From assembly GCA_015068645.1 (NCBI GenBank), contig SVKD01000002.1:1-55732 (forward strand): 55,732 nt of DNA, read 5' to 3'. Shown piece after piece: positions 1 through 52,833 of this stretch (position 1 is the first letter of the stretch; every line of letters starts with the position of its first letter). This stretch comes from Oscillospiraceae bacterium (GTDB lineage: Bacteria > Bacillota > Clostridia > UMGS1840). Below the pieces are notes generated by a model. It was not told where the DNA came from, did not search any database, and saw nothing but the letters and a program-made list of their open reading frames with translations. The position numbers and the translations under genes are program-made.

Positions 1-3000
1 CGGTGAACTTATCCACATTAGCTGCATCGTTTACGGTAATGGTAGCAGTTGCTGCATTACAGTAGAAGTTATCGGTTACGGTAACAGTGTAAGTACCTGC
101 TTTACCGGGTACGGTTACTTTATTGCTTGCATAGCTTCCGCCGTTATTTACGGTAACAGTTGCAGCTTTGATGTACGCACCATTCACAGCAGTAAATAAA
201 TCAGCGAAGTTGAAGGTCTGATTCTGACCAACTGTGTTAACAGTTAAGTTAACGGTTTTGTTGGTTGCAGTCCATTTGGTCTGGTTAGCCGGAGCAGTTA
301 AGGTAACTTTACCGGTTGCGGTGTTACAGTAGTAATTGTCGGTAATGGTAACGGTTACATCGCCGGTGGTGCCGGGGATGGTAACGGTTGCATTTGCCCA
401 ATCAGCAGCGCTAACAGTGGTAGCTTTACCTGCGATGGTAACGGTGATGTTACCGGTTACTACATTGGTTCCTGAGAAGATGTCACCCAGTTTTACGGAA
501 ACTGCTTTTTCATCAATAGATGCTAAAGTATGAGTAACGCTGGGGTTCTTAGCAGTGAATTTGTTAATCGGGTCTGCATCTGCAACGGTTACGGTTGCAG
601 TTGCAGTGTTACAGTAGTAGTTATCGGTGATGGTTACTTTATAAGTACCAGCGCCGGTAAAGGTTACAACATTGTTTGCATAAGCTCCGTCGCCGCCTAC
701 AGTGATAGTTCCTTTAACGTAGCCGTTATCAGTGAACAGTTCATCTAAAGTAGCGGTTACAGTGTTAGAGCCGTATGCTAATTTTTTGGAAACGGTTTTA
801 CCGGTCCATTTATCAACATTAGCGGGTTCTTTTACGGTAACAGTTGCAGTTGCTTTGTTACAGTAGTAGTTATCGGTTGCGGTAATGGTGAAGGTACCGA
901 TTCCGGTAACAGTGATTTTGCCGTCTGCATAAGTTGCACCTTCCACGGTAATGTCTTTTACAACATATTCGGTGTTGGTGTCAAACAGGTCAGCAAAATT
1001 GTAAGTTACGGTGTTTGCTTCGATGGTATCTAAAGTATGAGTGTAAGTTACCGCTTTACCGGTGAATTTATCAACGTTTGCTACATCTTTCACGGTGATG
1101 GTAGCGGTTGCTGCATTACAGTAGAAGTTATCGGTTACGGTTACGGTGTAGGTACCTGCTTTTCCGGGTATGGTAATTACATTGTTTGCGTAAGAACCGC
1201 CGTTGTTAACAGTTACAGTTGCATCTTTGATGATTGCACCTTCAACTGCGGTGAATAAATCTTCAAAGTTTACGGTCTGATCCTGACCAACAGTATTAAC
1301 GGTTAAGTCAACCGTCTTGTTGGTTGCAGTCCATTTATCAACATTAGCGGGTTCTTTTACGGTAACAGTTGCAGTTGCTTCGTTACAGTAGAAATTATCT
1401 GTTGCGGTAATGGTGAAGGTACCGATTCCAGTAACAGTGATTTTGCCGTCTGCATAAGTTGCACCTTCCACGGTAATGTCTTTTACAACATATTCGGTGT
1501 TAGTGTCAAACAGGTCAGCAAAATTGTAAGTTACGGTGTTTGCTTCGATGGTATCTAAAGTATGAGTATAGGTTACAGCTTTACCGGTGAATTTATCAAC
1601 GCTTGCTGCATCTTTCACGGTGATGGTAGCAGTAACAGGGTTACAGTAGAAGTTATCGGTTGCAGTTACGGTGTAGGTACCTGCTTTTCCGGGTACGGTT
1701 ACAACGCCATCTGCAAAGCTTGCTCCGTTATCTACGGTTACGGAAATCGCTTTGATTACTACACCTTCAACTGCGGTGAATAAATCTTCAAAGTTTACGG
1801 TCTGATCCTGACCAACAGTGTTCACAGTTAAGTCGATAGTTTTGTTGGTAGCAGTAAATTTATTTACATTTGCAGGAGCGTTTACGGTAACAGTTGCAGT
1901 TGCAATGTTACAGTAGAAGTTATCGGTTGCGGTAACGGTAATGGTTCCTAAACCGGTAACAGTGATTTTACCGTCTGCATAAGTTGCGCCTTCCACGGTA
2001 ATATCTTCCGCTTTTACATTTGCACCTTCAACGGTGTCAAACAGGTCTGCAAAATTGTAAGTTACAGTGTTTGCTTCGATGGTATCTAAAGTATGGGTAT
2101 AAGTTACAGCTTTACCGGTGAATTTGTCCATCGCAACAGGCGCATTTACAACTACAGTTGCAGTTGCAGTGTTACAATAGAAATTATCGGTAATGGTAAC
2201 ATAGAAGGTACCGGTGCCTGCGAAGGATACTTTACCGTCTGCATAGGTTCCGTCGCCGCCTACGGTTACTTCTTTCACAGTATAACCGTTATTCGTGAAC
2301 AGTTCTTCTAAAGTAGCGGTTACAACACCATCTTCGATTGTGAATAAGGTGTGAGTCAGCGTAACAGCTTTACCGGTGAACTTGTCAACATTTGCAGGTT
2401 CATTTACGGTAATGGTTGCGGTTGCTTCGTTACAGTAGAAGTTATCGGTTGCGGTAACGGTGATGGTGCCTAAGCCTTCCACGGTTACTTTACCGTCTGC
2501 ATAGGTTGCGCCGGTTACGGTAATGTCTTTTACAACATATTCATCGTTGGTATCGAATAAGTCTGCGAAATCAACAGTGTAAACATTGGATTCGATGGTA
2601 TCTAAAGTATGGGTAACTTCAATATCTTTACCAACGAATTTATCTACGTTTGCTGCATCGTTTACGGTAATGGTAGCGGTTGCTGCATTACAGTAGAAGT
2701 TATCGGTGATGGTTACGGTGTAGGTGCCTGCAGTTCCGGGTACAACTACCTGACCATTGATAAAGTTTCCGCCTTCCACGGTAATGGTAGCATTTTTGAT
2801 ATTTGCGCCTTCAATTGCAGTGAATAATTCAGCTACAGTGAAGGTCTGATCCTGACCTGCAGTGTTAACAGTTAAGTCAACAGTCTTGTTGGTTGCAGTC
2901 CATTTATCCACGCTTGCAGGTGCATTTACGGTAACAGTTGCAGTTGCAGTGTTACAATAATAGTTATCGGTTACGGTGATGGTTTTGGTACCGAAACCTT

Positions 3001-3180
3001 CTACGGTGATTTTGCCGTCTGCATAAGTTGCGCCGGTTACGGTGATGTCTTCCATTTTTACAGGAACGCCGCCGATTACGGTAAACAGATCAGCAAAGTC
3101 ATAGGTTACGGTATTTGCTTCCACGGTTTCCAAGGTGTGAGTATAGGTCACATCGTTACCGATAAATTTGTCGATAGAAG
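1..3180 (-). repeat. Twelve tandem ~87-residue Ig-like repeats in the giant protein
   Basis: Each unit ends in a strongly conserved TDN(F/Y)YCN.ATATITV block. Its Cys codon falls at plus-strand 59, 326, 611, 860, 1118, 1385, 1643, 1910, 2174, 2432, 2690 and 2954, so spacing is 249-285 nt, always a multiple of three. Two sub-types roughly alternate: one with TNKTVDLTVNT.GQDQTF and one with GKAVTYTHTLDTIEAN. The beta-rich pattern and length suggest a bacterial Ig-like fold. Confidence 0.85.
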
Positions 3181-5947
3181 GAATGGTTTTGGGAGTGAAG
3201 GTGTAGGTTCTGCCAACCACGTAAGATTCGTTTTCGTTGTTGGGGTTATACATCTTCAGTGCCAGAGTTACTTCTAAGTCGGGGTTAGCAACTAAGAATT
3301 CGGGAGTAAATGCTAAACCACAGTTAAAGTCTTTTACGGAGTTTACGATATCCGCATAAGTCAGTTTTAAGCCACTCTGACCCATGAGAGCTGCTGCAGT
3401 TTCCATGACTCTTACAGGGGTATTTGCCTGCAGAGTTGCATCTTCAAAGGGAACGGATACCCAGTTTTTGCTCCATGCATCATACTGACCGGAGAGGAAA
3501 CCGTCTGCATTGCCGTTTGCATTGAAGGTTGCAGTTTTGTTTACGGTTAATTCGTAATCTGCATACCAATCACCGAACATCAGAAGCTGCTCCTGAGTAG
3601 ATTCGTCTGCTTTGAAGTTTAATGCGAAATCTAAATCAACGCCTTCGATTGCTTCAACGTCCAGTTCAGTAACGGTTGCAGTGGGCTGTTTCCAGGTTCT
3701 GGTGATTGCATCACCGATTACATAGGATTCAGCGGGATTTAAGGGATTGTAGATTCTTAATTCCACGGTAGCGGATACGCCATCGTTTGCTGCTAAGAAC
3801 TCTTTAGAGAAGTTGATACCACAATCAAAATCTTTGATGGTTTCAACGACATCACGATAAGTTGCGCTCATACCTGCGGTTTCTAATACTTTTACAGGTG
3901 CGCCTGCGGTAATTGCTAAATCAGTTGCAGGAAGTTTTACCCATTCTGCTCCGAATTCGTCATACTGACCTAACAGATAACCGTCTTTTTCGCCATTTGC
4001 ATTGAAGGTTGCATTTTTGTTGAAAGTTACTACATAATCTGCAGCCCAGTCACCAAAGGTTGCCAACTGAGATTCGGTTGCTTCGTTTGCTTTGAAGTTC
4101 ATTGCAAAGTCTGCTTCTACATCTAATTTAGTGGTATCTAAGTGAGTAACTTCTGCGGTGGGTAAGGTCCAGCTGAAGGATTTTTCAGCGATGGTGTATG
4201 CTTCGTCGGTAACAGGATTTACGATTACCAGTGCTAAGGATACTTCTAAACCATCATTTGCTTTTAAGTAGCTATCTGCGAAGTTTACGCCACAATCAAA
4301 GTCTTTTACGGTTTCAACTACATCTTTGTAAGTAACGTTCATACCTGCGGTTGCCAATACGTTTACAGGAACGCCTGCTTTCACAGTATAGTCTGCTGCA
4401 GGAATGCTTACAAATTCAGGACCGAATTCGTCATACTGACCAACTAAGTAACCGTCTTTGGTGCCGTTTGCGTTAAAGGTTGCATCTTTGTTGGTAGTAA
4501 ATACAAAGTCTGCTTTCCAATCGCCAAAGGTTGCTACCTGAGATTCGGTTGCTTCGTCTGCTTTGAAGTTTAATGCGAAGTCTGCTTCTGCTACTTTAAT
4601 GTCGGTAACAGTTGCAGTAGGCATGGTAAAGTCGAATGCTTTTTCTGCGATGGTGTATGCTTCGCCGGTAACAGGATTTACGATTACCAGTGCTAAGGAT
4701 ACTTCTAAACCATCATTTGCTTTTAAGTAGCTATCTGCAAAGTTTACGCCGCAGTCGAAATCTTTAATGGTTTCAACTACATCGCGATAAGTAACGTTCA
4801 TGCCAGCGCTTCCCAAAACATTTACGGGAACGCCTGCGGCAACGGTTACGTCCGCTGCGGGAACTTTTACAAATTCAGGACCGAATTCGTCATACTGACC
4901 AACTAAATAACCGTCTTTGGTGCCGTTTGCATTGAAGGTTGCGTCTTTGTTGGTGGTAAATACAAAGTCTGCTTTCCAATCGCCGAAGGTTGCTACCTGA
5001 GATTCGGTTGCTTCGTCTGCTTTGAAGTTTAATGCGAAGTCTGCTTCTGCTACGTCAATTTCGGTAACAGTTGCAGTAGGCATATTAAAGTCAAATGCTT
5101 TTTCTGCGATGGTGTAGGTATTGCCGTTTTCGGGATTTACCAGAACTAATGCGATAGAAACTTCTAAGCCATCATTTGCTTTTAAGTAAGCATCTGCATA
5201 GTCAACACCACAGTCGAAGTCTTTTACGGTTTCAACCACATCACGATAAGTAACATTCAGACCTGCTGCATCCATAATGGATACGGGAGTACCTGCAGTA
5301 ATTGCGAAATCGGTTGCAGGAACTTTTACAAATTCAGGACCGAATTCGTCATACTGACCGATTAAGTAACCGTCTTTAGAGCCATCCTGGTTAAAGATGG
5401 CATCTTTGTTAGTAGTAAATACAAAGTCTGCCTCCCAATCACCGTAGAATGCTAACTGTTCGTCAGTTACTTCGTCTGCTTTGAAGTTTAATGCAAAGTC
5501 TGCATCGGTAGAAATTGCAGTCACGGTTGCAGTGGGAAGTTCTTCTAATAAGTCACGTTCAATGGTGCCCACATTGGTTAAAGGAGCAAGAGTTGCTTCG
5601 TCCCAAGCGAACACTTTCAATAAATCGGTATCGGCTACCGAAATTGCAGAGGTAGTAAAGGTCGCAACTACGCCTGCAGTCATACTAACAGAATCAATAG
5701 ATTCCATTTTTTCAAGTTTACCGGTTTCGATATCGTAATGAGCTACCATTACGCTTGCGGTACCGGTTTTACTTGCAGTGAAGGTCACGTTGGCATAAAG
5801 TTTGTCCACGCCATCCAACTGAGTTGCTACGCTGTTATCTTCAGCATTGTAGAACGCAATTGTACCAAGCTCATTTGCATAAGTTGCAAATGTGAACATG
5901 CTTGCCAACAGGGTCAAAGTGAGAAGAATGCTTAAAAATCTTTTCAC
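1..5947 (-). CDS. Giant exported repeat protein, 5' part (C-terminus outside window)
   Basis: The minus-strand frame stays open from a GTG at 5945-5947 to the left edge, about 1,982 codons with no stop seen. The GTG start is chosen because a good Shine-Dalgarno site (AAAGGAAG) lies 8-9 nt upstream and the first residues, VKRFLSILLTLTLLASMF, form a signal peptide ending near TYA-NE. Residues about 25-135 form a domain ending in a KVFAWDEATLAPL motif that I have seen in other clostridial exported proteins. About 137-923 hold five repeats of roughly 155 residues, and 923 onward at least twelve Ig-like repeats of roughly 87 residues. Likely role: cell-surface or secreted scaffold or adhesin (inference). 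No catalytic motif or anchor is visible; an LPXTG motif or S-layer domains could lie beyond the edge. Composition is rich in T, V, A, D and N, with about one Cys per repeat. Confidence 0.88.
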   Translation of the reverse strand, partial: MKRFLSILLTLTLLASMFTFATYANELGTIAFYNAEDNSVATQLDGVDKLYANVTFTASKTGTASVMVAHYDIETGKLEKMESIDSVSMTAGVVATFTTSAISVADTDLLKVFAWDEATLAPLTNVGTIERDLLEELPTATVTAISTDADFALNFKADEVTDEQLAFYGDWEADFVFTTNKDAIFNQDGSKDGYLIGQYDEFGPEFVKVPATDFAITAGTPVSIMDAAGLNVTYRDVVETVKDFDCGVDYADAYLKANDGLEVSIALVLVNPENGNTYTIAEKAFDFNMPTATVTEIDVAEADFALNFKADEATESQVATFGDWKADFVFTTNKDATFNANGTKDGYLVGQYDEFGPEFVKVPAADVTVAAGVPVNVLGSAGMNVTYRDVVETIKDFDCGVNFADSYLKANDGLEVSLALVIVNPVTGEAYTIAEKAFDFTMPTATVTDIKVAEADFALNFKADEATESQVATFGDWKADFVFTTNKDATFNANGTKDGYLVGQYDEFGPEFVSIPAADYTVKAGVPVNVLATAGMNVTYKDVVETVKDFDCGVNFADSYLKANDGLEVSLALVIVNPVTDEAYTIAEKSFSWTLPTAEVTHLDTTKLDVEADFAMNFKANEATESQLATFGDWAADYVVTFNKNATFNANGEKDGYLLGQYDEFGAEWVKLPATDLAITAGAPVKVLETAGMSATYRDVVETIKDFDCGINFSKEFLAANDGVSATVELRIYNPLNPAESYVIGDAITRTWKQPTATVTELDVEAIEGVDLDFALNFKADESTQEQLLMFGDWYADYELTVNKTATFNANGNADGFLSGQYDAWSKNWVSVPFEDATLQANTPVRVMETAAALMGQSGLKLTYADIVNSVKDFNCGLAFTPEFLVANPDLEVTLALKMYNPNNENESYVVGRTYTFTPKTIPSIDKFIGNDVTYTHTLETVEANTVTYDFADLFTVIGGVPVKMEDITVTGATYADGKITVEGFGTKTITVTDNYYCNTATATVTVNAPASVDKWTATNKTVDLTVNTAGQDQTFTVAELFTAIEGANIKNATITVEGGNFINGQVVVPGTAGTYTVTITDNFYCNAATATITVNDAANVDKFVGKDIEVTHTLDTIESNVYTVDFADLFDTNDEYVVKDITVTGATYADGKVTVEGLGTITVTATDNFYCNEATATITVNEPANVDKFTGKAVTLTHTLFTIEDGVVTATLEELFTNNGYTVKEVTVGGDGTYADGKVSFAGTGTFYVTITDNFYCNTATATVVVNAPVAMDKFTGKAVTYTHTLDTIEANTVTYNFADLFDTVEGANVKAEDITVEGATYADGKITVTGLGTITVTATDNFYCNIATATVTVNAPANVNKFTATNKTIDLTVNTVGQDQTVNFEDLFTAVEGVVIKAISVTVDNGASFADGVVTVPGKAGTYTVTATDNFYCNPVTATITVKDAASVDKFTGKAVTYTHTLDTIEANTVTYNFADLFDTNTEYVVKDITVEGATYADGKITVTGIGTFTITATDNFYCNEATATVTVKEPANVDKWTATNKTVDLTVNTVGQDQTVNFEDLFTAVEGAIIKDATVTVNNGGSYANNVITIPGKAGTYTVTVTDNFYCNAATATITVKDVANVDKFTGKAVTYTHTLDTIEANTVTYNFADLFDTNTEYVVKDITVEGATYADGKITVTGIGTFTITATDNYYCNKATATVTVKEPANVDKWTGKTVSKKLAYGSNTVTATLDELFTDNGYVKGTITVGGDGAYANNVVTFTGAGTYKVTITDNYYCNTATATVTVADADPINKFTAKNPSVTHTLASIDEKAVSVKLGDIFSGTNVVTGNITVTIAGKATTVSAADWANATVTIPGTTGDVTVTITDNYYCNTATGKVTLTAPANQTKWTATNKTVNLTVNTVGQNQTFNFADLFTAVNGAYIKAATVTVNNGGSYASNKVTVPGKAGTYTVTVTDNFYCNAATATITVNDAANVDKFT
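3180..5540 (-). repeat. Five tandem ~155-residue repeats in the giant protein
   Basis: Each unit carries ADFALNFKADE, then W.ADFVFTTNKDATF, then GQYDEFGPEFVKVPA, then TYRDVVET(I/V)KDFDCGV and LVNPE.G..YTIAEKAF. The FDCGV blocks lie near 5215, 4755, 4300, 3820 and 3330. Copies two and three are nearly identical in protein, while the fifth (about 3180-3680) is the most diverged. Confidence 0.85.
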
Positions 5948-6235: not shown

Positions 6236-6290
6236 TTTTTATGTGCATAACGGACATCACCCCTAAAGCAGATGTCCTGGATAAAAAACA

Positions 6291-6319
6291 AAAAAAGCAA
6301 TGGATAACCATTGCTTTTT
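6291..6319 (-). terminator. Intrinsic terminator-like hairpin
   Basis: GCAATGG-ATAA-CCATTGC has A-runs on its left and T-runs on its right. On the minus strand it is followed by a long T-rich tract, so it could stop leftward read-through from the repeat array before the giant gene promoter. Confidence 0.6.
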
Positions 6320-6346: not shown

Positions 6347-6470
6347 AAGGTGAAGAAAAAGGGCATAGAATTTGCAAACTGAACCGAAGGGTTACCTGAA
6401 GCTGTAGTACTGCGTACAGCATAACGGTACAGCGAGAGGTGAAGTTTGCGTTCTATGTTCTTTTTCAAGC
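6347..6470 (+). repeat. Dispersed three-way-junction element, copy A
   Basis: Outer arms GAAAAA/TTTTTC and CATAGAA/TTCTATG pair, followed by GCAAACT (6374-6380) with AGTTTGC (6443-6449). Conserved GA dinucleotides flank the junction on both sides. Arm P2 is the short ACC-GAA-GGGT hairpin. Arm P3 is the long GCTGTAGTAC...GTACAGC hairpin, preceded by TACCTGAA and followed by GAGAGGTGA. There is no coding content. Confidence 0.7.
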
Positions 6471-6482
6471 TATTCGCAACCT

Positions 6483-6622
6483 AAGGTGAAGAAAAATTCG
6501 GCTAAAATGGAGAAACCGAATCGAAACTTGTTTCGATAGTACCCGAAGCCGCAGTACTGCGTACAGCATATTTATGTACGGCGAGTGGTGAGGTTCACGG
6601 ATTGTGCGCTGTTTTTCAAGCC
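6483..6622 (+). repeat. Dispersed three-way-junction element, copy B
   Basis: Same layout as copy A but with different arm sequences. The core stem is AACC/GGTT, P2 is TCGAAAC-TTG-GTTTCGA-like, and P3 is GCCGCAGTAC...GTACGGC. The constant blocks CCGAAGCC and GCGAGTGGTGAGGTT and the ends AAGGTGAAGAAAAA and TTTTTCAAGCC are kept. Confidence 0.7.
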
Positions 6623-6625
6623 GTT

Positions 6626-6776
6626 GTTCAAGGTGAAGAAATCCTCTTCCATCTCAGGCGTAGAGAAAATGGCTCAGAACGGACAAACTGAACCCGCAGG
6701 GATTATCCGAAGCCGTAGTACTGCGTACAGCATATTTGTGTACGGCGAGTGGTGAGGTTCACGGGTCTGCACAACC
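6626..6776 (+). repeat. Dispersed three-way-junction element, copy C (right arm missing)
   Basis: Core AAACT-GA-ACCC-GCA-GGGAT-TATCCGAAGCC, P3 ending GTACGGC, then GAGTGGTGAGGTT. The usual TTTTTCAAGCC right end is absent and copy D starts at once, so C looks truncated by the neighbouring copy. Confidence 0.6.
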
Positions 6777-6975
6777 AAGGTGCAGAAAAAGGGCATAGAA
6801 TTTGCAAACTGAACCGAAGGGTTACCCGAAGGCGTACATCGGTACGCCGAGAGGTGAAGTTTGCAGATAGCAAAAGGCATTCTGATTAAAATTTGTGCCA
6901 ACAAATTTTCACCTTATAAAAGAAAAGACATGGAAAAAATCCATGCCTTTTGCGGTCTATGTTCTTTTTCAAGCC
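6777..6975 (+). repeat. Dispersed three-way-junction element, copy D (split right arm)
   Basis: The left half is almost identical to copy A, with P3 as GGCGTAC/GTACGCC. After AGTTTGC (about 6857-6864) about 85 nt of unrelated sequence follows, including the glnN terminator. The right arm then resumes as TCTATGTTCTTTTTCAAGCC (6956-6975), three bases from the glnN stop codon. Confidence 0.55.
6923..6951 (-). terminator. Terminator after glnN
   Basis: Hairpin CATGGA-loop-TCCATG extended by AAAAG/CTTTT. On the minus strand a CTTTTCTTTT tail follows. It lies about 30 nt after the glnN stop and ends the gltX-glnS-asnA-glnN cluster. Confidence 0.7.
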
Positions 6976-6978
6976 GTC

Positions 6979-9063
6979 CTATACGCTGAAGAGAAGGTCG
7001 CCGTATGAAGGATAAGGCCAGTATGTCTTATCCGTCACTTCTTCCAGCTGGTCGGCAATTTCACGGGCTTCGTTCATAACGGACAGCACGTTTTCGCAGT
7101 AATAACGGGCGATTTCGGCACCGTCGTTCAACGCTTTCACGCCCTGCAGATTTTCGTCTAGACGGTTTACGGTGAAATAGAGCTCGTCGGTTAAAGCGGT
7201 CACTTTTTTAGCGAGTTCCATTTCGTAGGCACCTGCACCCACAGTTGCCGCTTTATTTTGAATAGAAACACACAAATCGCTTGCAAAGCGAGAGCAAGCA
7301 GGCAGGATTTCCTTACGTACCATTTCCAGCATGGTGAGTGCTTCAATATTGATGACTTTGGAGTATCCTTCCAAAAGCACTTCCACACGGGATTCCATTT
7401 CGGTGCGGCTATAGATTTTATGTTTGCCAAATAAGGCAACATTTTCGTCGGTTACGTAGTGAAGCAACGCTTCAGGGGTGGTTTTTAAGTTTAAAAGACC
7501 TCGTTTTTCGGCCTCATCCACCCATTCGTCGGAATAGTTGTTGCCGTTGAAAATAATGCGTTTATGGTTTTTCACCGTTTCCTTGATGATTGCCATTACA
7601 TCGTTTTCAAAATTAGACGACTGTTCCAGACGGTCGGCAAAATCGCAGAGCACATCAGCAACAATGGTATTTAACATAATGTTGGAACCGGAAATAGAGA
7701 ATGCGGAACCAAGCATACGGAATTCAAATTTGTTCCCGGTAAATGCAAAGGGAGAGGTACGGTTACGGTCGGTGGTATCTTTTCTGAATTGAGGCAGAAC
7801 ATCTACCCCACCATCCATTTTTTCCTTTTTGATTTTCTGATAGGGAGTGTCGGTTTCGATAGCTTCCAAAATGGCAGTCAACTCGTCCCCTAAGAAGACA
7901 GACATAATCGCCGGAGGTGCTTCACTGGCGCCCAGACGATGGTCGTTTCCTGCAGATGCAGCGGAAATACGGAGCAAATCCTGGTGTTCGTCCACCGCTT
8001 TGATGACCGCTACCAAGAACAGTAAGAAACGCAGATTATTTTCGGGATATTTGCCCGGATTTAACAGGTTTACTCCTGTGTTGGTGGAAATGGACCAGTT
8101 ATTGTGCTTCCCGCTGCCGTTTACGCCTAAGAATGGTTTTTCGTGAAGCAGGCAAACTAAATTATGCCGTTCCGCCACTTTTTTCATCACTTCCATAGTG
8201 AGCTGATTATGGTCGGTGGCAATATTGGTGGTGGCAAAAATGGGCGCCAACTCGTGCTGAGAGGGAGCCGCTTCATTATGTTTGGTTTTTGCCAATACGC
8301 CCAGTTTCCAGAGTTCTTCGTCCAGCTCTTTCATATAGGCGGAAACACGGGTTTTGATGGCACCAAAATAATGGTCCTCCAATTCCTGACCTTTGGGCGG
8401 TTTGGAACCGAATAAGGTTCTGCCCGTGAAGATTAAGTCAGGACGTTTGTCATACATTTCTTTGTCGATTAAAAAATATTCCTGTTCGGCACCCACAGTG
8501 GTGGTCACAGTGGCATCCAAATCTTCGCCAAACAGTTTCACAATTCTGCCCGCCTGATGGCTGATTACTTTCATGGAACGAAGCAGGGGTGTTTTTTTGT
8601 CTAAAACTTCACCGCTATAGGAATAAAAAGCGGTGGGAATACACAAAGAACCGTCTTTAATAAAGGCATAAGAGGTGGGATCCCAGGAGGTGTAACCTCT
8701 TGCTTCAAAGGTGGAACGAAGTCCGCCTGAGGGAAAGCTTGACGCATCGGGTTCCCCTTTAATCAGCTCTTTCCCCGAAAATTCCATCAGAACTTTACCG
8801 TCCCCTGCGGGCACGATAAAGCTGTCGTGTTTTTCTGCGGTGATACCTGTCATCGGCTGGAACCAGTGGGTATAATGGGTTGCGCCGTGTTCCACAGCCC
8901 AATCCTTCATTGCAGATGCCACCTGATTGGCAACATTTAAGTCCAACGCTTCCCCGTCTTCTAAAGTGTGCTTCAACGCTTCGTACACTTCTTGGGGCAA
9001 ACGAGCCTGCATTTCGGTATCATTAAATACAAAACTGCCGAATAATTCGGGAATATTAGCCAT
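6979..9063 (-). CDS. glnN: Glutamine synthetase, type III
   Basis: Makes glutamine from glutamate, ammonia and ATP in the cytoplasm. The 694 residues match the large type III family rather than the ~450-residue type I. Family-typical blocks include the N-terminal [10 protein letters not shown] and [21 protein letters not shown], the [10 protein letters not shown] block that contributes metal-binding glutamates, and [14 protein letters not shown] and [15 protein letters not shown] near the active site. The ATG at 9061-9063 has a GGAAGAAC ribosome-binding site. It is the last gene of a minus-strand cluster and lies 33 nt after asnA, so ammonia assimilation into both amides is probably co-expressed. 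No glutamine riboswitch or GlnR-type site was seen immediately upstream, and regulation probably acts at the gltX promoter. Confidence 0.96.
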
Positions 9064-9096
9064 AAAAAGTTCTTCCTTTTTTCAGATTTACAAAAA

Positions 9097-10104
9097 TTAT
9101 AACAGATTCATACCGTATTCTTCTGCCTGTTTACGGGTGTTTTTATCCCACACGGATACCTGCACCTCGCCAACGTGTGCTTTTTCCAACAGAAGCATAC
9201 AAAGGCGGCTCTGACCGATACCGCCACCCATAGTTAAAGGCAGAGTACCGTCTAAGAGCATCTGGTGGAAAGGCAAGGTTTTTCTGTCTTCACAGTCTGC
9301 TTTTATCAGCTGTTCTTCCAAAGATTTTTCGTCCACACGGATCCCCATGGAAGAGATTTCCAAAGCGGAATCCAACATGGGATTATAGAAGAGTAAATCC
9401 CCGTTTAATTTCCAGTCATCATAGTCGGGAGCACGGCCGTCGTGCTTTTTGCCCGATTTCAACACATCGCCGATACCGATGATGAATACGGTTTTCTTTT
9501 CTTTAGCGATGGCATTTTCTCTTTCTTTGCCGGTCAGGTCGGGATATAAATCTTCCAATTCCTGAGAGGTGATAAAGGTGACATCACGGTTTAAGGTAAT
9601 GGAAATCGCAGGATAATCTTTTTTGATTTCATCCAAGGTGTCACAGATGGCACCCACGATTTTTCTGACAGTATCTTTTAAGAAATCCACAGTTCTGTCT
9701 TCTTTTGAGATAATGGATTCCCAATCCCACTGATCCACATAGATGGAATGGAGGTTATCCATGGTTTCATCACGACGGATGGCATTCATATCGGTATAAA
9801 TGCCTTCCCCTTTGGAGAACCCGTACTGGTAGAGTGCCAGACGTTTCCATTTTGCCAGAGAATGCACGATTTCCGCCATCCCTTGGGTTTCGGGAATATC
9901 AAAGGTAACGGCACGCTCCACCCCGTTTAAGTTGTCGTTTAAGCCCATACGGGATTCCACGAACAAGGGAGCGGTGACACGTTTTAAATTCAACACTTCC
10001 GCCAGTTTATCCTGAAAAATACGTTTGGTTTTTCCGATAGCGGTCTGGGTTTCGTAAATATTTAATGTTTTGGGATACCACACAGGTTTCATAGTCTGAC
10101 TCAT
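9097..10104 (-). CDS. asnA: Aspartate-ammonia ligase (asparagine synthetase A)
   Basis: Makes asparagine from aspartate and ammonia with ATP hydrolysed to AMP. The fold is related to class II aminoacyl-tRNA synthetases. Its 335 residues match the usual ~330. Recognisable blocks are [21 protein letters not shown] near the N-terminus, QWDWE in the middle and the C-terminal [30 protein letters not shown]. The start at 10102-10104 has an AAGGAGGAAT site 8-9 nt upstream. It lies between glnS and glnN in one orientation, with gaps of 54 and 33 nt, which suggests one transcript for amide amino-acid supply. AsnA uses free ammonia, so it competes with GlnN for the same substrate. Confidence 0.96.
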
Positions 10105-10158
10105 GGGTGGATTCCTCCTTTATTTTGATAGGAAATATCCAAAAAATATTAAAAAATA

Positions 10159-11811
10159 TTAGTTGGGTTTGTAGCTGTCTTTTAAGTTGACGATTAAGTT
10201 AAAGGTGTCGGGGAATTTGCTGTCCTTCTGGAAATAACCGTTACGAACAAACTGGAATTTGTCTTCTAAGGTTGCATCATTTAAGGACGGTTCGCAAATT
10301 GCTTTGCAGATTGCAACAGAATCTTTGTTTAAATAATCGTCGTAGCCTTTGTCTTCGGGCATATCGTTCATATTTTCCAAAGTGAAGAGACGGTCATACA
10401 GACGCACTTCTTTTTCCACGCCGAATTTAGCAGATACCCAATGGATGGTTCCTTTCACTTTTCTGCCGTCGGGAGCGTTGCCGGAAAATGTTTCGGGATC
10501 GTAGGTACAATGGATTTCCACGATATTGCCGTTTTCGTCTTTCACCACATCCTGATACTGGATGAAGTAAGTTCCCATCAGACGCACTTCCCCGCCGGGT
10601 TTTAAACGGTGGAACTTCGGAGGCGGAACCTCTGCAAAGTCGGAGCGTTCGATATAGATTTCACGGGAAATAGGCACTTCACGGTAGGTGGTTTCGGGAT
10701 CCTGAGGATTATCGGGTAATTTGATATATTCCACTTTGTCTTCGGGATAGTTGGTTAATACCACTTTCACCGGATCTAACACAGCCACACGGCGTTTTGC
10801 GGTGGTATTCAATTCGTCACGGATACAAAATTCCAACAGACCGATATCCACCAGGCTGTTTGCTTTGGCAACACCGGAACGTTTTACAAATTCAAAAATG
10901 GAAGAGGGAGTGTAACCACGTCTTCTTAATCCGCATAAGGTGGGCATTCTGGGGTCATCCCAACCGTCCACGATGCCTTCTTCCACCAACTGGCGGAGAT
11001 AACGTTTGCTCATTACGGTGTTGGTCACATTCAGACGAGCAAATTCGTACTGATGAGGCGGCATTTCGAATCCTACATTTTCCACAACCCAGTCATACAA
11101 GGGTCTATGATTTTCAAATTCGATGGAGCATAAGGAATGGGTGATACCTTCCAACGCATCCTGCAGGGGATGTGCATAGTCATATAAGGGATAAATGCAC
11201 CATTTGTTGCCCTGACGGTGATGGTCGGTATGCACGATACGATAAATTGCAGGGTCACGCATATTCATATTGGGAGACGCCATATCAATTTTGGCACGTA
11301 AAGTTTTTTCGCCGTCCTTAAATTCCCCGTTTTTCATCCGTTCAAATAAGTCTAAGTTTTCTTCCACGCTTCTGTCACGGTAGGGAGAGTTTTTACCGGG
11401 AGTGGTTAAGGTACCACGGTATTCTCTCATTTCTTCCGCATTTAAATCGCAGACGTATGCTTTGCCTTTTTTGATCAGTTCGCAGGCAAACTCGTAGCAC
11501 TTATCAAAATAATCGGAGCCGTAGAAGATACCACCGTCGGGAATGGCACCCAGCCATTCTAAATCTTTATAGATTGCCTGCACATATTCGTCATCTTCTT
11601 TGGCAGGGTTGGTATCGTCATAACGCAGGTTAAACTGTCCGCCGTATTTTTTGGCAGTTCCCCAGTTAATCCAGATTGCTTTTGCGGAACCGATATGAAG
11701 GTATCCGTTAGGTTCGGGCGGAAAACGGGTATGGATTTTTTCCACTTTGCCTTCCGCTAAGTCTTTATCAATAATTTCGTGTATGAAATTGCTTTCCATA
11801 ATTTCTGACAT
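10159..11811 (-). CDS. glnS: Glutaminyl-tRNA synthetase
   Basis: Class I synthetase that charges tRNA-Gln directly with glutamine. Its 550 residues compare with ~554 in E. coli. The signature [20 protein letters not shown] contains the HIGH-type motif, and VMSKRYL is the KMSKS-type motif. The blocks [30 protein letters not shown] and the C-terminal beta-barrel region (about 330-545) follow the family order. Many Bacillota make Gln-tRNA-Gln only by GatCAB transamidation, so a direct GlnRS implies that the adjacent GltX can be Glu-specific. The preceding 262 nt carries two dispersed repeats and no clear promoter, so transcription probably comes from gltX. Confidence 0.96.
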
Positions 11812-11863
11812 CTTTTCAATATTCCTTTCCTAAAAAGGTGATTCATTTTATCGTATTCGACAA

Positions 11864-11908
11864 TCCCTCAGTCACTTCGTGACAGCTCCCTTTGCACAAG
11901 GGAGCCTA
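11864..11908 (+). repeat. Dispersed double-hairpin repeat (CCCTCAGTCAC family)
   Basis: GTCAC-TTC-GTGAC is followed by GCTCCCTT-TGCAC-AAGGGAGC, with a T-run just after on the plus strand. A related pair of hairpins is inside the mobile-element-like repeat near 52551-52599. The family resembles repeats I have met in other gut Clostridia. Confidence 0.5.
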
Positions 11909-11950
11909 TCGTTTTTTTGGGGGATATTTTTCAAGCTCTTGCTTTTTTAT

Positions 11951-12074
11951 AGGGTGCAGAAAAACTGATGCAAAATTCGGAAATCGAATCAAGGCAACGC
12001 CTTGACGATCCCGAAGCTGTACCGTGTGTACAGCGAGTGGTGAGATTCACGGATTATGCGCAGTTTTTCAAGCC
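11951..12074 (+). repeat. Dispersed three-way-junction element, copy E
   Basis: Outer arms GAAAAACTG/CAGTTTTTC pair over nine bases. The core stem is AATC/GATT with GA on both sides. P2 is TCAAGGC-AAC-GCCTTGA and P3 is GCTGTAC-CGTGT-GTACAGC, between CCGAA and GAGTGGTGA. The right end TTTTTCAAGCC overlaps the gltX stop region. An extra right-arm remnant (TTTTTCAAGC, about 11926-11935) precedes it. Confidence 0.7.
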
Positions 12075-13708
12075 TACAAAGAAAGACGAGCCTTAACTAA
12101 TTCGTTACCCATTACGCGGAACACTTCATAGGTATCGGGCGTATTCTGACGTCCGCAAATCTGCACGCGAAGAACGGTAGAAACTTGGGCAACATTCCCT
12201 TTAAATGCTTCGGGATTCTTTTTATACTCCTTCATATTGGAAGTGAAGCCGTGTTTTTCGGATAAGTCTTTGATTTTCTGGAACCATTCGTCCTGAGAAT
12301 CATTTTCATCGTAGATTTCTTTGTATTCGGTAATCAAAAGATTTCTGTCTTCTTCCGAAATATTTTCAGGGAACTGATAATCAGGCTGATATAATTCGGG
12401 GAAGAAATAGGAAATGTAGTCCTTGATTTCGGATAATTTCGCAATATCCTTTCTCGGTTTGGGGCCTACACGTCCGATATTTAAAATTTCTAACACTTTT
12501 TCTTTTTGTGCGGTGATAATATGATAAAATTCTTTGTCGAATTCCTCTGTATAGGTTTCCAATAACGCATAAAGTTCGGTATTGGAAAGTTTTGCTAACT
12601 CGTTTTTGGAAACGTCGTCCAGTTTTACCAAATCAAACAGTGCACCGGATACAGACATCTTCTTGGGAGAGAAGGGGAAGTCTCTGTAGGACTTATCGGG
12701 ATTTTGTGCATACCATTCTTCAAAGTTGGAGTTAAGAAGCGTCATCAGGTACACCATCACGCAGTTTACCACGTAACCTTCCTGCTTGTAGAAGGAAAGC
12801 GCCAGCTCGGGGTCTTTTCGTTTGGAAAGTTTACGTTTGGTGGAACCGTCCATCTTCATCAAGGGTGCAATATGCATATATTTGGGAGCTTTTAAGCCAA
12901 CCGCACGATACAGTTGCAGGTGAATGGGCAGGGTTGCAATCCATTCGTCCCCACGGACAACGTGGGTGGTACCCATCAGATAGTCATCCACAACGTGTGC
13001 AAAATGGTAGGTGGGGATTCCGTCGGACTTTAAGATAACAACATCCATATCGTTTTCGGATAATTCCAAGTCCCCTTTTACCAAATCGGTGAATTTGAAT
13101 TTATTGTCAATACTGCCTTCGCTTTTAAAACGGAGCACCCAGGGCATTTTTTTTGCTAATCTCTCTTTGATTTCATCCAAAGTCAGCTCACGGCATTTTG
13201 CCCATTTGCCACGGTACCCTAAGTTATCTTCCTTTTCTGCTTCCTGACGGGCTCTTAAATCGGAAAGCTCGTCCTCGGTGCAAAAGCAAGGATACGCCAT
13301 TCCTTTTTCCACCAAATCTTTGGCAAATGCCTGATAAATTTTGGCACGCTTTCGCTGTCGGTAGGGACCGTAAATCCCTTTTTCTCCCTCTACCAAAGCA
13401 CCTTCGTCAAAGTTTAAGCCAAAGTGAGACAAGCCGTCAATAATCGCCTGCACACCGCCCTCAACTTCACGTTTCTGGTCAGTGTCTTCAATACGAAGAT
13501 AGAAGGTACCGCCGGAAAGATGTGCCAGACGCTCGGAGGTTAAAGCCGCATAGAGGTTTCCCAAATGCATAAAGCCGGTGGGAGAGGGTGCCATACGGGT
13601 CACTTTTTCGCCTTCTTTTAAATCGCGACGGGGATAGGTATTGCTGATTTCTTCTAAGGTGGGAAGAGATGCATCAAACAAAAGTGTTGCCAGAGACTTG
13701 GTATCCAT
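12074..13708 (-). CDS. gltX: Glutamyl-tRNA synthetase
   Basis: Class I synthetase that charges tRNA-Glu. The HIGH-type motif is in RMAPSPTGFMHLGNLYAAL (about residues 38-56), followed by FYLRIEDTDQKREV; the KMSKS-type motif is KRKLSKRKDPELALSF. At 544 residues it is longer than the ~470-490 of many bacterial GluRS and matches a clostridial sub-type with an extended anticodon-binding part. The ATG at 13706-13708 is preceded by a sigma-A promoter. It is first in the minus-strand cluster with glnS, asnA and glnN. With GlnRS present it is probably Glu-specific (inference). The dispersed element E abuts its stop codon. Confidence 0.95.
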   Translation of the reverse strand: MDTKSLATLLFDASLPTLEEISNTYPRRDLKEGEKVTRMAPSPTGFMHLGNLYAALTSERLAHLSGGTFYLRIEDTDQKREVEGGVQAIIDGLSHFGLNFDEGALVEGEKGIYGPYRQRKRAKIYQAFAKDLVEKGMAYPCFCTEDELSDLRARQEAEKEDNLGYRGKWAKCRELTLDEIKERLAKKMPWVLRFKSEGSIDNKFKFTDLVKGDLELSENDMDVVILKSDGIPTYHFAHVVDDYLMGTTHVVRGDEWIATLPIHLQLYRAVGLKAPKYMHIAPLMKMDGSTKRKLSKRKDPELALSFYKQEGYVVNCVMVYLMTLLNSNFEEWYAQNPDKSYRDFPFSPKKMSVSGALFDLVKLDDVSKNELAKLSNTELYALLETYTEEFDKEFYHIITAQKEKVLEILNIGRVGPKPRKDIAKLSEIKDYISYFFPELYQPDYQFPENISEEDRNLLITEYKEIYDENDSQDEWFQKIKDLSEKHGFTSNMKEYKKNPEAFKGNVAQVSTVLRVQICGRQNTPDTYEVFRVMGNELVKARLSL

Positions 13709-30543: not shown

Positions 30544-31437
30544 ATGGAAACTACCAAAAAAATTAAGTTTATTACCGACTCTGCGGCAGATATCCCAAAA
30601 GAATATGCAAAAGAAAAAAACATTGATGTGTTGCCTTTTCATGTGTATTTAAAACCTCATAACGGGGAAGTGCAGGAATATTTTGACGGCGTGGATATCA
30701 CCTCCGATGAAGTGTTTGCTTTTATGGAAGAAAACAAAGGCAATGTTTCCACTTCTCAGGTAACTGCTTTCACCATTGAGGAATATTTCCGTGAATTAGC
30801 GGCAAAAAATGAATATGACACCTATATTTTCACTTGTATCTCTTCTTTGGGAAGTCCCACCTATAACAATGTGAAAATTGCTTTAAAAAATATGGAAGAA
30901 GACGGCATCAAACTGGATGTGCGTCTGATTGACTCCAAATTCTATACCATTTGTTACTACTACGCAATGCGGGACGGCATCGCCGCTTATGAAAAGGGTG
31001 CCTCTGCTGACGAAGTGGTGAAAATTATTGAAGATTGTTGCCAATCCACCAACATTTTCTTAATGAACGGCACCTTGGAATATTTAAAACGAGGCGGCAG
31101 AATCACAGGCGCATCTGCACTTTTGGGAACCATTCTGGATATCAAACCTATTCTGACGGTGAAAGACGGGTTAATGGCAGCAACTGAAAAAGTGCGCGGT
31201 GTCAAAAAGACAATGAACCGCATTATGGAGCTGGTGAAAGATGCCACCAAAGACGGCGGCTACCGTTATATGATTGTGTATTCCAACAAAGCACAATACT
31301 ACGACGAATTTGTGCAACTGGTGCACGAAAACTTCAAAGGGGCAGAAATCACCGAAAATCAGGTAGGATGTACCGTTGGCGTTCATATTGGACCGGGACT
31401 TGTGGGACTGATGTTCCAGAAGGTTACTAAAATGTGA
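30544..31437 (+). CDS. DegV-family fatty-acid-binding protein
   Basis: 297 residues. DegV (FakB-type) proteins bind a fatty acid and, with the kinase FakA, allow its phosphorylation for lipid synthesis. Recognisable blocks are KFITDSAADIPKEYAKEKNIDVLPFHVYL at the N-terminus, NVSTSQVTAFTIEEYF, then ISSLGSPTYNNVKIAL and the C-terminal VGVHIGPGLVGLMF. No fakA gene is in the window. The stop codon runs straight into a reverse copy of the three-way-junction element. Confidence 0.93.
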   Translation: METTKKIKFITDSAADIPKEYAKEKNIDVLPFHVYLKPHNGEVQEYFDGVDITSDEVFAFMEENKGNVSTSQVTAFTIEEYFRELAAKNEYDTYIFTCISSLGSPTYNNVKIALKNMEEDGIKLDVRLIDSKFYTICYYYAMRDGIAAYEKGASADEVVKIIEDCCQSTNIFLMNGTLEYLKRGGRITGASALLGTILDIKPILTVKDGLMAATEKVRGVKKTMNRIMELVKDATKDGGYRYMIVYSNKAQYYDEFVQLVHENFKGAEITENQVGCTVGVHIGPGLVGLMFQKVTKM

Positions 31438-31549
31438 AAAACAGCACTTAGCGGATGAACCTCACCGCTCGGCGTACACTCGGTACGCCTTCGGGTAATC
31501 CCTTACGGGTTCGGTTTCGACCCTCTGCACTATTTTTCTCATTTTAGCC
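31438..31549 (-). repeat. Dispersed three-way-junction element, copy F (reverse)
   Basis: Read on the minus strand: GAAACC-GA, P2 ACCC-GTAA-GGGAT, TACCCGAA, P3 GGCGTAC-CGAGT-GTACGCC, then GAGCGGTGAGGTTC. Its right end TTTTTCA merges with the degV stop codon. On the degV sense strand it starts right after the stop and ends in TATTTTTCTC. Confidence 0.7.
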
Positions 31550-31568: not shown

Positions 31569-31651
31569 GTTGTAGGGCGTGACGACTCGGCACGCCGTGG
31601 TTGATTTTAGATACCCATACAACGGGACGATGTGGGCATCGTCCCCCACAA
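31569..31651 (+). repeat. TGTAGGG-type dispersed repeat
   Basis: GTTGTAGGGCGTGACGACTC, then GGCACGCC, and GGGACGATGTGGGCATCGTCC as a hairpin, then CCCACAATG. Same family as 16957 and 19314. Confidence 0.5.
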
Positions 31652-33744: not shown

Positions 33745-33864
33745 ATAATAAAGAAGAATGAAGAGTGAAGAATTGCGGTGGGTTGGCAAAGCCAACCATT
33801 CTATGATGCAGCCAAAGGCTGCCACCGAAATTATTCATTATTCACTATTCATGATTCATTCAAC
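33745..33864 (+). repeat. TTATTCA-arm mobile-element-like repeat (complete)
   Basis: The left arm GAATGAAGAGTGAAGAATTG-CGGTGG is complementary to the right arm CCACCG-AAATTATTCATTATTC. The interior has TTGGC-AAA-GCCAA and GCAGCC-AAA-GGCTGC hairpins. There is no coding content. Copies are at 31651, 36711 and 52489. Confidence 0.7.
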
Positions 33865-33882
33865 ACAAAAAGGAAAATTACT

Positions 33883-43910: not shown

Positions 43911-45734
43911 ATGAAAAAGAATGTAATCGGAAAAGTGATTGCTGTGCTTTGTCTGATTTGCATTGTTGCAGTTGGTGCTTTTTCTGCAAAAACCACCTCC
44001 GTGGTGGACTGTGCGGACTGTGAAGGCGCAGGCTATACCCATGTGGTAAGCTGTTTGGACTGTAACGGTGAAGGAATCGTGGAAGATGAAGATTGCGGTA
44101 CCTGCGAAGGTGCAGGAACCATAACTTATCTTGCAGGAAGCGCAGATCACATTGCATCAGCTGAAGCTTTAGAAGCTTCTAAAACCACCTGTGAAACTTG
44201 TGCAGGCGAAGGCAGTGTAGCTCCCGACAGCGGCTATTATGCAACCTTTATGGCATTACTGCCTCCCTTGGTTGCGATTGGTTTGGCGTTAATCACCAAA
44301 GAAGTGTATTCCTCTTTATTTGTAGGGATTGTGCTGGGTGGCTTACTGGTAGCCAACTGGAAACCCGTTGCAGGACTGGACTATGTGCTAAATGACGGTA
44401 TTATTTCCGCAGTGTCCGGCACCGCAGGGATCTTCATTTTCTTGGTAATTTTGGGCGCAATGGTTGCTTTAATCAATAAAGCAGGCGGCTCTGCAGCCTT
44501 CGGACGTTGGGCAGAAAAACACATCAAATCCCGTGTTGGTGCAGCGTTTGCAACCTTTATCTTAGGCGTTTTAATCTTTATTGATGACTATTTCAACTGT
44601 CTGACCGTGGGCTCCGTGATGCGTCCCGTAACAGACAGACACAAAATTTCCCGCGCAAAATTTGCATACTTAATTGATGCAACTGCCGCACCCATCTGTA
44701 TGATTGCTCCTGTTTCTTCCTGGGCAGCAGCCGTTTCCGAATTTACCAAAGGAACCGGCTACTCCGGTATTGAACTGTTTGTAAGAGCAATTCCTTACAA
44801 CTTCTATTCGTTATTGACTATCGTATTTATCATCGCCATCACCTTAATGAAATTTGATTACGGCCCCATGAAGCTTCACGAAGCAAATGCCATGGAAAAA
44901 GGGGACTTGTTCACCTCCGGCGCGGAAGAATTTCCCGTAGAAGCTTCCGAAGCAAATCGTAAGGGTAAAGTGATTGACTTAATCTTCCCCATTATTGTGT
45001 TAGTTGTGATTTCTGTAATCGGACTGATTTATGTTGGCGGATTCTTCTCCGGCGAAACCTTTATCAACGCATTCGGTAACACCGATGCAACCGTTGGTCT
45101 TCCCTGGGGTGCAATTATCGCACTGATTGTGACCATCGTATACTTAATGTTAAGAAGAACCGTTACCTTCAAAGAAGCGATGGAATGTATTCCCAAAGGC
45201 TTTAATGCAATGGTTCCCGCAATTTTAATCTTAACTTTTGCAACTGCTTTAAAAAATATGACCGGCTTGCTGGGTGCAGATACCTTTGTGGCAGGCCTGA
45301 TGGACTCCGCTGCTGCAGGCTTATCCGCATTCTTACCCGCAATTATCTTCTTAGTTGCTTGCGTGCTGGCTTTTGCTACCGGTACTTCCTGGGGAACCTT
45401 TGGTATCTTAATCCCCATCGTAACTGCAATGTTCCCCGGCAACAGCGAACTGTTAATCATCGGTATCTCTGCTTGCTTGGCAGGTGCGGTTTGCGGTGAC
45501 CACTGCTCCCCCATTTCCGATACCACCATTATGTCTTCTGCAGGAAGCCAGTCCAACCACTTAAATCACGTGTCCACTCAGATTCCTTATGCGATTACCG
45601 TGGCGCTGATTTCCTTTGTGGTATACCTGATGGCAGCATTTATCCCCAATGCCTGGGTATTACTCCCCATCGGTATTGTGCTGACCATTGCTACATTGGT
45701 TGTAATTAAAAACATAACTGCGAAAAAGCAATAA
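43911..45734 (+). CDS. nhaC: NhaC-family antiporter fused to an N-terminal DnaJ-type zinc-finger domain
   Basis: 607 residues. Residues 5-26 are a signal or first membrane helix. Residues 34-101 carry four CxxCxGxG motifs: CADCEGAG (34-41), CLDCNGEG (48-55), CGTCEGAG (62-69) and CETCAGEG (94-101), the count and pattern of the DnaJ cysteine-rich domain. From about 110 the rest is an NhaC-type Na+/H+ (or amino-acid/ion) antiporter with ten or more helices, including IFIDDYFNCLTVGSVMRPVTDRHKIS, SWAAAVSEF, TGTSWGTFG and VCGDHCSPISDTTIMSSAG, which are typical of the family. The Cys-rich part should lie outside the membrane, unlike cytoplasmic DnaJ (inference from the leading helix). No J-domain is present. 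It has its own promoter and terminator. Confidence 0.9.
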   Translation: MKKNVIGKVIAVLCLICIVAVGAFSAKTTSVVDCADCEGAGYTHVVSCLDCNGEGIVEDEDCGTCEGAGTITYLAGSADHIASAEALEASKTTCETCAGEGSVAPDSGYYATFMALLPPLVAIGLALITKEVYSSLFVGIVLGGLLVANWKPVAGLDYVLNDGIISAVSGTAGIFIFLVILGAMVALINKAGGSAAFGRWAEKHIKSRVGAAFATFILGVLIFIDDYFNCLTVGSVMRPVTDRHKISRAKFAYLIDATAAPICMIAPVSSWAAAVSEFTKGTGYSGIELFVRAIPYNFYSLLTIVFIIAITLMKFDYGPMKLHEANAMEKGDLFTSGAEEFPVEASEANRKGKVIDLIFPIIVLVVISVIGLIYVGGFFSGETFINAFGNTDATVGLPWGAIIALIVTIVYLMLRRTVTFKEAMECIPKGFNAMVPAILILTFATALKNMTGLLGADTFVAGLMDSAAAGLSAFLPAIIFLVACVLAFATGTSWGTFGILIPIVTAMFPGNSELLIIGISACLAGAVCGDHCSPISDTTIMSSAGSQSNHLNHVSTQIPYAITVALISFVVYLMAAFIPNAWVLLPIGIVLTIATLVVIKNITAKKQ

Positions 45735-45754
45735 TCATTTTTAAAACAAACATC

Positions 45755-45790
45755 AAAAAGAGGAACGAATCGGATTCGTTCCTCTTTTTT
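45755..45790 (+). terminator. Terminator after nhaC
   Basis: AAAAAGAGGAACGAATC-GG-ATTCGTTCCTCTTTTTT; very strong stem. Confidence 0.93.
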
Positions 45791-45828
45791 CGTATAAACA
45801 AAAGCTTGTCGGGATAGGCTTATGGTGG

Positions 45829-52488: not shown

Positions 52489-52660
52489 TGAATGAAGAAT
52501 GAATAGTGAATAATGAATAATTATGGTGGTTCAGCCTTGCTGAACATAAAACCCTCTCAGTCAGCCTTGCTGACAGCTCTCCCACAGGGAGAGCCATTTC
52601 ATGCAGCCATCGGCTGCCACCGAAATTATTCACTCTTCATTATTCAATATTCATTATTCT
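52489..52660 (+). repeat. TTATTCA-arm mobile-element-like repeat carrying a nested hairpin repeat
   Basis: The left arm GAATAGTGAATAATGAATAA with GGTGG is complementary to the right arm CCACCGAAATTATTCACTC. Inside are GTTCAGC-CTT-GCTGAAC, CAGTCAGC-CTT-GCTGACAG, CTCTCCC-ACA-GGGAGAG and GCAGCC-ATC-GGCTGC. The middle two resemble the repeat at 11864. Confidence 0.7.
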
Positions 52661-52663
52661 TTT

Positions 52664-52704
52664 GCAAGGCGCAGAAAAATGTGCCATTTATCAAACCATA
52701 CCTT
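52664..52704 (+). repeat. Core-less copy of the three-way-junction element (copy G)
   Basis: AAGGCGCAGAAAAATGTGCC is followed directly by ATTTATCAAACCAT, the two outer ends without the junction core. Confidence 0.5.
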
Positions 52705-52711
52705 ACTCTTT

Positions 52712-52833
52712 CAAGGCGCAGAGAAATGGATGCAAAACAGAGAAACTGAACCCCGAAGGGGGTTACCCGAAGCTGTACCGTGTGTACAGCGAGTGGTGAA
52801 GTTAATCTGTTTAGCGCCATTTATCAAGCCATA
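52712..52833 (+). repeat. Dispersed three-way-junction element, copy H
   Basis: Outer arms AAATGG/CCATTT and AAACAGA/TCTGTTT, core stem AACT/AGTT with GA on both sides, P2 ACCCC-GAAG-GGGGT, P3 GCTGTAC-CGTGT-GTACAGC, then GAGTGGTGAAGTT. It is in the same orientation as the genes, 29 nt before rsmE. Confidence 0.7.

Follow-up and report, generated by a model that had tools for sequence, protein, structure and literature searches.

Integron attC sites lie directly behind a stop codon, vary in sequence while conserving their fold, and have a folded strand that is antisense to the gene. The element described here was found in a stretch of 55,732 nucleotides from an Oscillospiraceae bacterium (contig SVKD01000002.1 of assembly GCA_015068645.1; hereafter the window, meaning this whole stretch) and elsewhere in the same genome. 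It is also located behind stop codons, with a conserved fold and a folded strand antisense to the gene. Unlike attC sites, however, it does not occur in cassette arrays and its neighbours are resident core genes. The candidate attC identity was rejected because no integron integrase scored above the TIGR02249 cut-off in any of 13 carriers; background matches to this model were seen in all control genomes too.

As a rule, dispersed repeats in bacteria are simple palindromes identified by sequence, whereas this element is identified by its shape. REP sequences are simple hairpins of 20-50 nt with a GTAG (or CGTC) foot; the element, by contrast, measures ~103-290 nt, comprises a P2/P3 junction and fixed loops, has no fixed GTAG foot in its alignments, keeps a fixed orientation to the stop codon, and is also present in genomes in which no Y1 transposase was detectable. 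It nevertheless resembles REP/BIME sequences in its many intergenic copies, its arrays, its structured single strand and its frequent closeness to stop codons (PMC12306157, PMC8266576). REPs of E. coli situated within 15 nt of stop codons are reported to stall ribosomes (PMC12306157). The original prediction had found no REP-like match. This holds with regard to the defining features of REP, which the element lacks, but not with regard to copy number, arrays and stop-codon proximity, in which a likeness to REP/BIME and BOX is evident.

Streptococcus BOX elements (boxA-boxB-boxC) are likewise small interspersed repeats for which an RNA fold has been predicted and whose internal modules are optional (PMC3049150). 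No sequence or fold is known to be common to BOX and the element. The comparison with BOX is made through its published description, whose BOX passages concern another host group and describe no stop-codon lock (PMC3049150). SPRITE sequences of S. pneumoniae, which resemble Rho-independent terminators, are similarly dispersed and carry terminator-like hairpins; as described in the corresponding passages of the same source, they consist of a single duplex followed by a U-rich part and, unlike the element, have no three-way junction (PMC3049150). The L17 downstream element, a 3′-UTR motif (Weinberg 2010), is comparable in being a candidate structure 3′ of a coding region whose strand was assigned from G-U pairs (PMC2864571), but it is tied to one gene, whereas the present element has dozens of copies behind unrelated genes. 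By kind, the element belongs with the dispersed structured repeats (REP/BIME, BOX, SPRITE), and no family was found to include it. A search of Rfam 15 with curated and permissive thresholds on both strands returned no family at the gathering threshold and nothing credible, in agreement with the original statement that no named RNA matches. The open-access literature yielded no Clostridia repeat of such a kind. The reading we prefer, to which we assign just under an even chance, is that the element is mobile but non-autonomous, that its recognition depends on how one strand folds, and that copies have settled in the space from the stop codon to the terminator.

The repeat unit is ~120 nt long and occurs in a short form of ~103-138 nt and a long form of up to ~290 nt. 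A covariance model, R1, was built from 14 copies of the own genome with the structure drawn on copy E, and it identified 66 copies in this genome at E <= 0.1. The seven copies initially recognised in the window (A-D in tandem, E, F on the reverse strand, and H) are all present where they had been placed, but they constitute just part of these ~66. Six of the seven were folded singly, with z-scores calculated relative to dinucleotide shuffles. Copy A (6347-6471, plus strand; R1 73.6 bits, fold z -6.1) shows the full fold with a long P3, and 5′ of it the sequence contains a hairpin resembling a bidirectional intrinsic terminator (6290-6319, no strand). Copy B (6483-6622, plus strand; 62.5 bits, z -1.5) has an unformed outer stem with outer arms of two subfamilies. 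Copy C (6655-6776, plus strand; 26.3 bits, z -0.5) is degraded, and before it lies a fragment repeating the left end of another copy (6630-6643). Copy D (6777-6975, plus strand), in which R1 matches the core at 6800-6868, is a long form defined by its inverted repeat and fold: P4 and P5 span 6865-6958, with the P4 arms at 6865-6880 and 6943-6958 and hairpin P5 (~6888-6909) inside. Its 3′ end is located 3 nt before the reverse-complemented stop codon of glnA (gene 6979-9063, minus strand). The 3′ end of copy E (11951-12074, plus strand; 127.5 bits), which serves as the type example, touches the stop codon of an antisense tRNA synthetase gene (12074-13708, minus strand), and that of copy F (31431-31545, minus strand) overlaps the stop codon of an antisense DegV-family gene (30544-31437, plus strand). 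Copy H (52713-52830, plus strand), identified like copy F by its R1 match and fold, is the exception, being positioned 31 nt before the start of a co-directional gene (52862-53590).

A fold shared by all copies had been proposed. The drawn fold is indeed the minimum-energy fold, or near it, in copies A, E, F and H (z -5 to -6), but not in copies B and C, whose outer arms are mutually unmatched and which look like hybrids of two subfamilies. Similarly, the four tandem copies A-D exist, although copy D differs in length from the others owing to the extra hairpin pair P4/P5.

In the common fold, a long stem, P1, is interrupted by fixed internal loops and is accompanied by P3 and, optionally, by P2. 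In the numbering of copy E (11951-12074), a terminal step, G3G4/C123C124, is followed by an internal loop and then by the four segments of P1 (9-17/111-119, 19-22/107-110, 24-29/100-105 and 32-35/94-97), which are interrupted by a bulged A, an A-A opposition and a 2x2 loop. The junction residues GAA (36-38) and UGA (91-93) flank the inner region, which contains P2 (39-45/49-55), a CC/GG step (60-61/89-90), a purine-rich internal loop (62-65 opposite 85-88, CGAA/GAGY) and, beyond this loop, P3 (66-72/78-84). P2 is optional rather than a constant part of the fold, since it is missing from some copies, such as C2:62532 and C17:1910. The loop residues are invariant while the flanking helices covary, and the internal loops are the best conserved part of the element. 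In the long form, which is represented by copy D in the window and is common in other families, P4 and an inner terminator-like hairpin, P5, are inserted between the right-arm halves of P1. Cargo was sought inside this form, which holds hairpin P5 and ~75-140 nt; no gene was found. The arms of P1 and P4 consist of A-runs and T-runs, like those of bidirectional terminators.

Covariation was evaluated in three sets of copies, of which the first was aligned with plain MAFFT and the other two were fitted to the model. Among the 14 own-genome copies, 92% of cells pair and 19 pairs are doubly changed, a result reached by none of 500 shuffles. In 96 copies of the genus, 92.9% of cells pair, and double changes were observed in 31 of 38 pairs and in 569 cells, compared with a shuffled mean of 182; again, 0 of 500 shuffles reached the observed value, and sliding the partners by one column left 90-107 double-change cells. 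The 54 distinct copies from other families show double changes in 32 of the 38 pairs. Compensatory changes in four helices had originally been taken as evidence of a selected three-way-junction fold, and alignment of more copies had been suggested as a test. The changes, affecting four or more helices, are far above chance by both the shuffles and the one-column slide, the signal held in the larger sets, and selection on the fold is supported by it.

The outermost terminal pairs covary too, being of GC, AU and UA types; what is preserved is therefore not a fixed terminal sequence. Part of the covariation may originate from arm-to-arm copying in palindromes. Were the element a MITE with terminal inverted repeats mobilised by a DDE transposase, quasipalindrome correction and subfamily mixing would produce the covariation, and the long inverted arms, the many copies and the arm exchange seen in the hybrid copies B, C and C6:60136 would be accounted for. 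We consider this very improbable. The arm ends vary with compensation (GG/CC, AC/GT, TTTGC/GCAAA), whereas the ends recognised by transposases stay constant, and correction between arms would erase precisely the fixed mismatches and internal loops that are best conserved here. A strict orientation to the stop codon is also foreign to MITEs, and no clear target-site duplication accompanies the copies: the longest flanking direct repeat averages 2.96 nt, against 2.33 nt expected, with no fixed length, and the longest of these repeats mostly come from arrays.

With regard to the strand, G-U pairs outnumber A-C pairs, which correspond to G-U pairs on the opposite strand, by 209 to 43 on the given strand in the 96 genus copies and by 132 to 43 in the copies of other families. 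When columns dominated by one type are left out, the ratios are 114:39 and 69:43, respectively. The difference is small in the inner core helices within the genus, which makes the strand assignment good but not decisive. The given strand also has the lower folding energy in 86 of 91 copies, with a mean difference of 6.0 kcal/mol, of which ~3.1 would be expected from composition. The original prediction favoured an RNA read from this strand. The strand is upheld by these data, but the assignment to RNA is not: the strand that folds serves as template for the adjoining gene and has terminators next to it, and folded single-stranded DNA therefore fits equally well. Compensatory changes together with a G-U strand preference are the signs of a structured RNA, and folded single-stranded DNA gives the same ones.

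A structured non-coding RNA made from the fold strand, acting in cis on the gene's 3′ end or in trans and retained for its function, would nonetheless be consistent with the G-U asymmetry, the greater stability of this strand and the purine-rich fixed internal loops, which are typical of RNA. Positions conserved at glnA, degV and gltX agree with it as well, as does an excess of TATAAT sequences beginning 6 or 8 nt 5′ of the element (7 of 92 copies, against ~0.2 expected). However, no -35 signal was found upstream of the copies, and an own promoter was rejected, given that the excess is a weak, -10-like one without a -35. The gene on the 5′ side is co-directional in less than half of the copies, so that such an RNA could not be supplied by read-through, and terminators are present both 5′ of the copies and within P4 of the long form. 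In addition, a housekeeping or regulatory RNA would not usually be distributed so patchily or have ~60 copies following unrelated genes. We regard this explanation as doubtful.

The main regularity, which is new relative to the original prediction, is a lock to the stop codons of antisense genes. In 57 of 61 cases, the 3′ neighbour of an own-genome copy is a gene that runs antisense to the fold. When only the last copy of each array is counted, the 3′ end falls -12 to +15 nt from an antisense stop codon in 76 of 126 cases (own genome 30/46, congeners 21/30, other families 25/50), whereas 6.6% of random intergenic positions do so. Most of the remaining copies in other families cluster 105-145 nt from the stop codon, as would be expected if they are long-form copies with an undetected right end. 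The 5′ flank of the copies is T-rich over ~27 nt and A-rich farther out, a profile characteristic of intrinsic terminators; a hairpin followed by a T-rich stretch is the general context on this side. At C2:62656 and C2:65967, one terminator is common to two facing copies, whose 3′ ends point toward their own genes. This terminator-like flank and the shared terminators indicate that the usual order in the direction of the gene is stop codon, element, terminator. No functional theme was apparent among ~30 adjacent genes, as expected for a dispersing element; they include genes that are usually highly expressed, such as those for EF-Tu, glutamine synthetase, hydrogenase, pyruvate:ferredoxin oxidoreductase and lactate dehydrogenase.

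The exact site, after the stop codon and ahead of the terminator, would also suit a hairpin in the 3′-untranslated region of the mRNA that blocks exonucleases, slows translation termination or aids transcription termination. Highly expressed neighbours such as EF-Tu, the terminator-like A-run/T-run arms of P1 and P4, and the ribosome stalling by E. coli REPs no farther than 15 nt from stop codons (PMC12306157) are in line with this explanation. It is, however, unlikely in our view, since the mRNA strand is the less well kept of the two (88% of pair cells stay paired on it, compared with 93% on the fold strand), and a plain 3′ hairpin requires neither fixed internal loops nor the P3 core.

In most congeners, the glnA, degV and gltX genes are followed by copies, arrays or remnants, often with arms of another subfamily; behind glnA, congener G003 has a remnant only. 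Many copies are therefore old and stably retained, as a host function would also explain. Three other gene ends have copies in one species and none in another, and two of these three are in the window. There, a gene end at 45735-45795 (no strand) has no copy, the stop codon (45732-45734) being followed by a terminator hairpin, whereas copies are present at the orthologous place in congener G001. The uvrB/uvrA interval (33745-33880, no strand) also has no copy, whereas congener G004 has two, in opposite orientation. Such presence and absence between congeners may reflect loss rather than gain. In genome G060, four units of up to ~290 nt, ~95% identical, abut stop codons at unrelated loci, and those with both edges visible occupy the whole interval from one stop codon to another, convergent one. 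One copy is located behind a phage major capsid gene. In some arrays the spacers reproduce several nucleotides from the end of the gene, a sign of tandem duplication, and the combination of arms from different subfamilies was observed in the three hybrid copies mentioned above.

The compensated fold, the fixed loops, the dispersed copies, their presence or absence and the near-identical copies together suggest that the repeat is mobile and is recognised by its shape. Against mobility stand the lack of a clear target-site duplication, the fact that no autonomous partner was found, the old copies kept at glnA, degV and gltX, and the chance that the presence/absence pattern arose by loss. In the mechanism we propose for such a repeat, recognition would depend on how one strand, the one antisense to the adjoining gene, is folded rather than on a terminal sequence: P1 would be closed with the fixed purine-rich loops (GAA/UGA and CGAA/GAGY), and P2, P4 and P5 would be optional. 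A putative enzyme would act on the folded single strand, and copies would be placed between a stop codon and the terminator that follows, with the 3′ end at the stop codon. Arrays would then be built by local tandem duplication, and arms could be swapped by recombination between copies. We infer that what folds is single-stranded DNA, not RNA, and that an enzyme reads it. The stop-codon lock would likewise result from targeting rather than from later selection, the data fitting both. That the element represents a new class of mobile element, in which a multi-helix single-strand fold is recognised by an enzyme other than a Y1, DDE, reverse transcriptase or integron enzyme, at gene 3′ ends and always antisense, is a tentative possibility. 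A mobile repeat of this kind would imply a novel fold-reading enzyme and a novel route by which gene ends are found, while an RNA or mRNA element would amount to a general 3′-end device of a large group of gut bacteria. Whichever reading holds, the R1 model would allow dozens of intergenic sequences that now lack an explanation to be annotated in each genome.

With regard to the enzyme, Y1 transposase, reverse transcriptase and integron integrase are either absent from carriers or uncorrelated with the element. No autonomous partner of the element was found, and a non-exhaustive DDE search revealed no insertion sequence with matching ends. Retrotransposition was rejected because the reverse transcriptase domain RVT_1 is absent from 9 of 13 carriers, including G000. 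RAYT-like genes are present, two in the own genome and single ones in some carriers; all but one of their products score below the cut-off of the NCBIfam model for REP-associated tyrosine transposases. These genes, and the copies situated 60-140 nt behind two of them, could be explained by a REP-type element moved by the resident transposases. We consider this extremely unlikely, and REP/RAYT was rejected as a candidate: Y1_Tnp was not detected in the carriers G006 and G054, which have 6 and 38 copies (other carriers do have this transposase), the RAYT-like genes are paired with a different, GTAG-type hairpin carried in their own reading frame, and the element has no GTAG foot.

The RAYT-like genes at L201:3361-3867, L202:2835-3329, L203:2164-2688 (minus strand) and L204:2516-3034 each hold two inverted GTAG-type REP hairpins in the reading frame (GTAGGGG(A/C)CGA...), and at L201 and L203 the gene starts 3-5 nt after the stop codon of the upstream gene. 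A stray GTAG-type hairpin near copy F (31617-31650, minus strand; GGGGGACGATGCCCACATCGTCCC) apparently belongs to the REP family of these genes.

Each of five genomes of the genus was found to have 32-56 copies, under filters stricter than those of the own-genome count of 66. In a sample of the class, matches at E <= 1e-5 occurred in 33 of 391 genomes, 22 of 222 genera and ~10 families; the distribution is patchy. In a phylum sample of 398 genomes, the own genome was the sole match (0 of 397 others), so that this sample doubles as a specificity control. Phage and plasmid collections gave no match to the element. In IMG/VR, two contigs match the core pattern, one of them with a long form beside another unit. 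On one IMG/VR viral contig (L252:1000-1360), the right end of the preceding unit is located just before a long form, with a 3-nt spacer. The close relatives that share the adjoining gene are metagenome-assembled genomes from the guts of water buffalo and deer, and, by the same gene, the nearest organisms outside the genus are Anaerotruncus-like Oscillospiraceae.

Two other repeats are present in the window. One, at 52490-52665 and 33750-33862, has TGAATAATGAA-like arm units around a GGTGG...CCACC core and is MITE-like; it fills the uvrB/uvrA interval in which G004 carries its two copies of the element. Another, a third repeat family (CCCTC(T)CAGTC...GACAGCTC(T)CCC...GGGAG(A)GCC), occurs at 11865-11905 and 52550-52598 and shares the intergenic spaces of copies E and H. 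At the left of the window, an open reading frame of at least 1982 amino acids (2-5947, minus strand) has a start resembling a secretion signal and many near-identical repeats of two kinds. A Pfam search gave no credible match for it, and judging from these features it probably encodes a surface protein. Finally, the minus strand from 6979 to 13708 encodes a type III glutamine synthetase, an AsnA asparagine synthetase and two adjacent genes of the Glu/Gln-tRNA synthetase family, which by their predicted products form a nitrogen-assimilation cluster on one strand.
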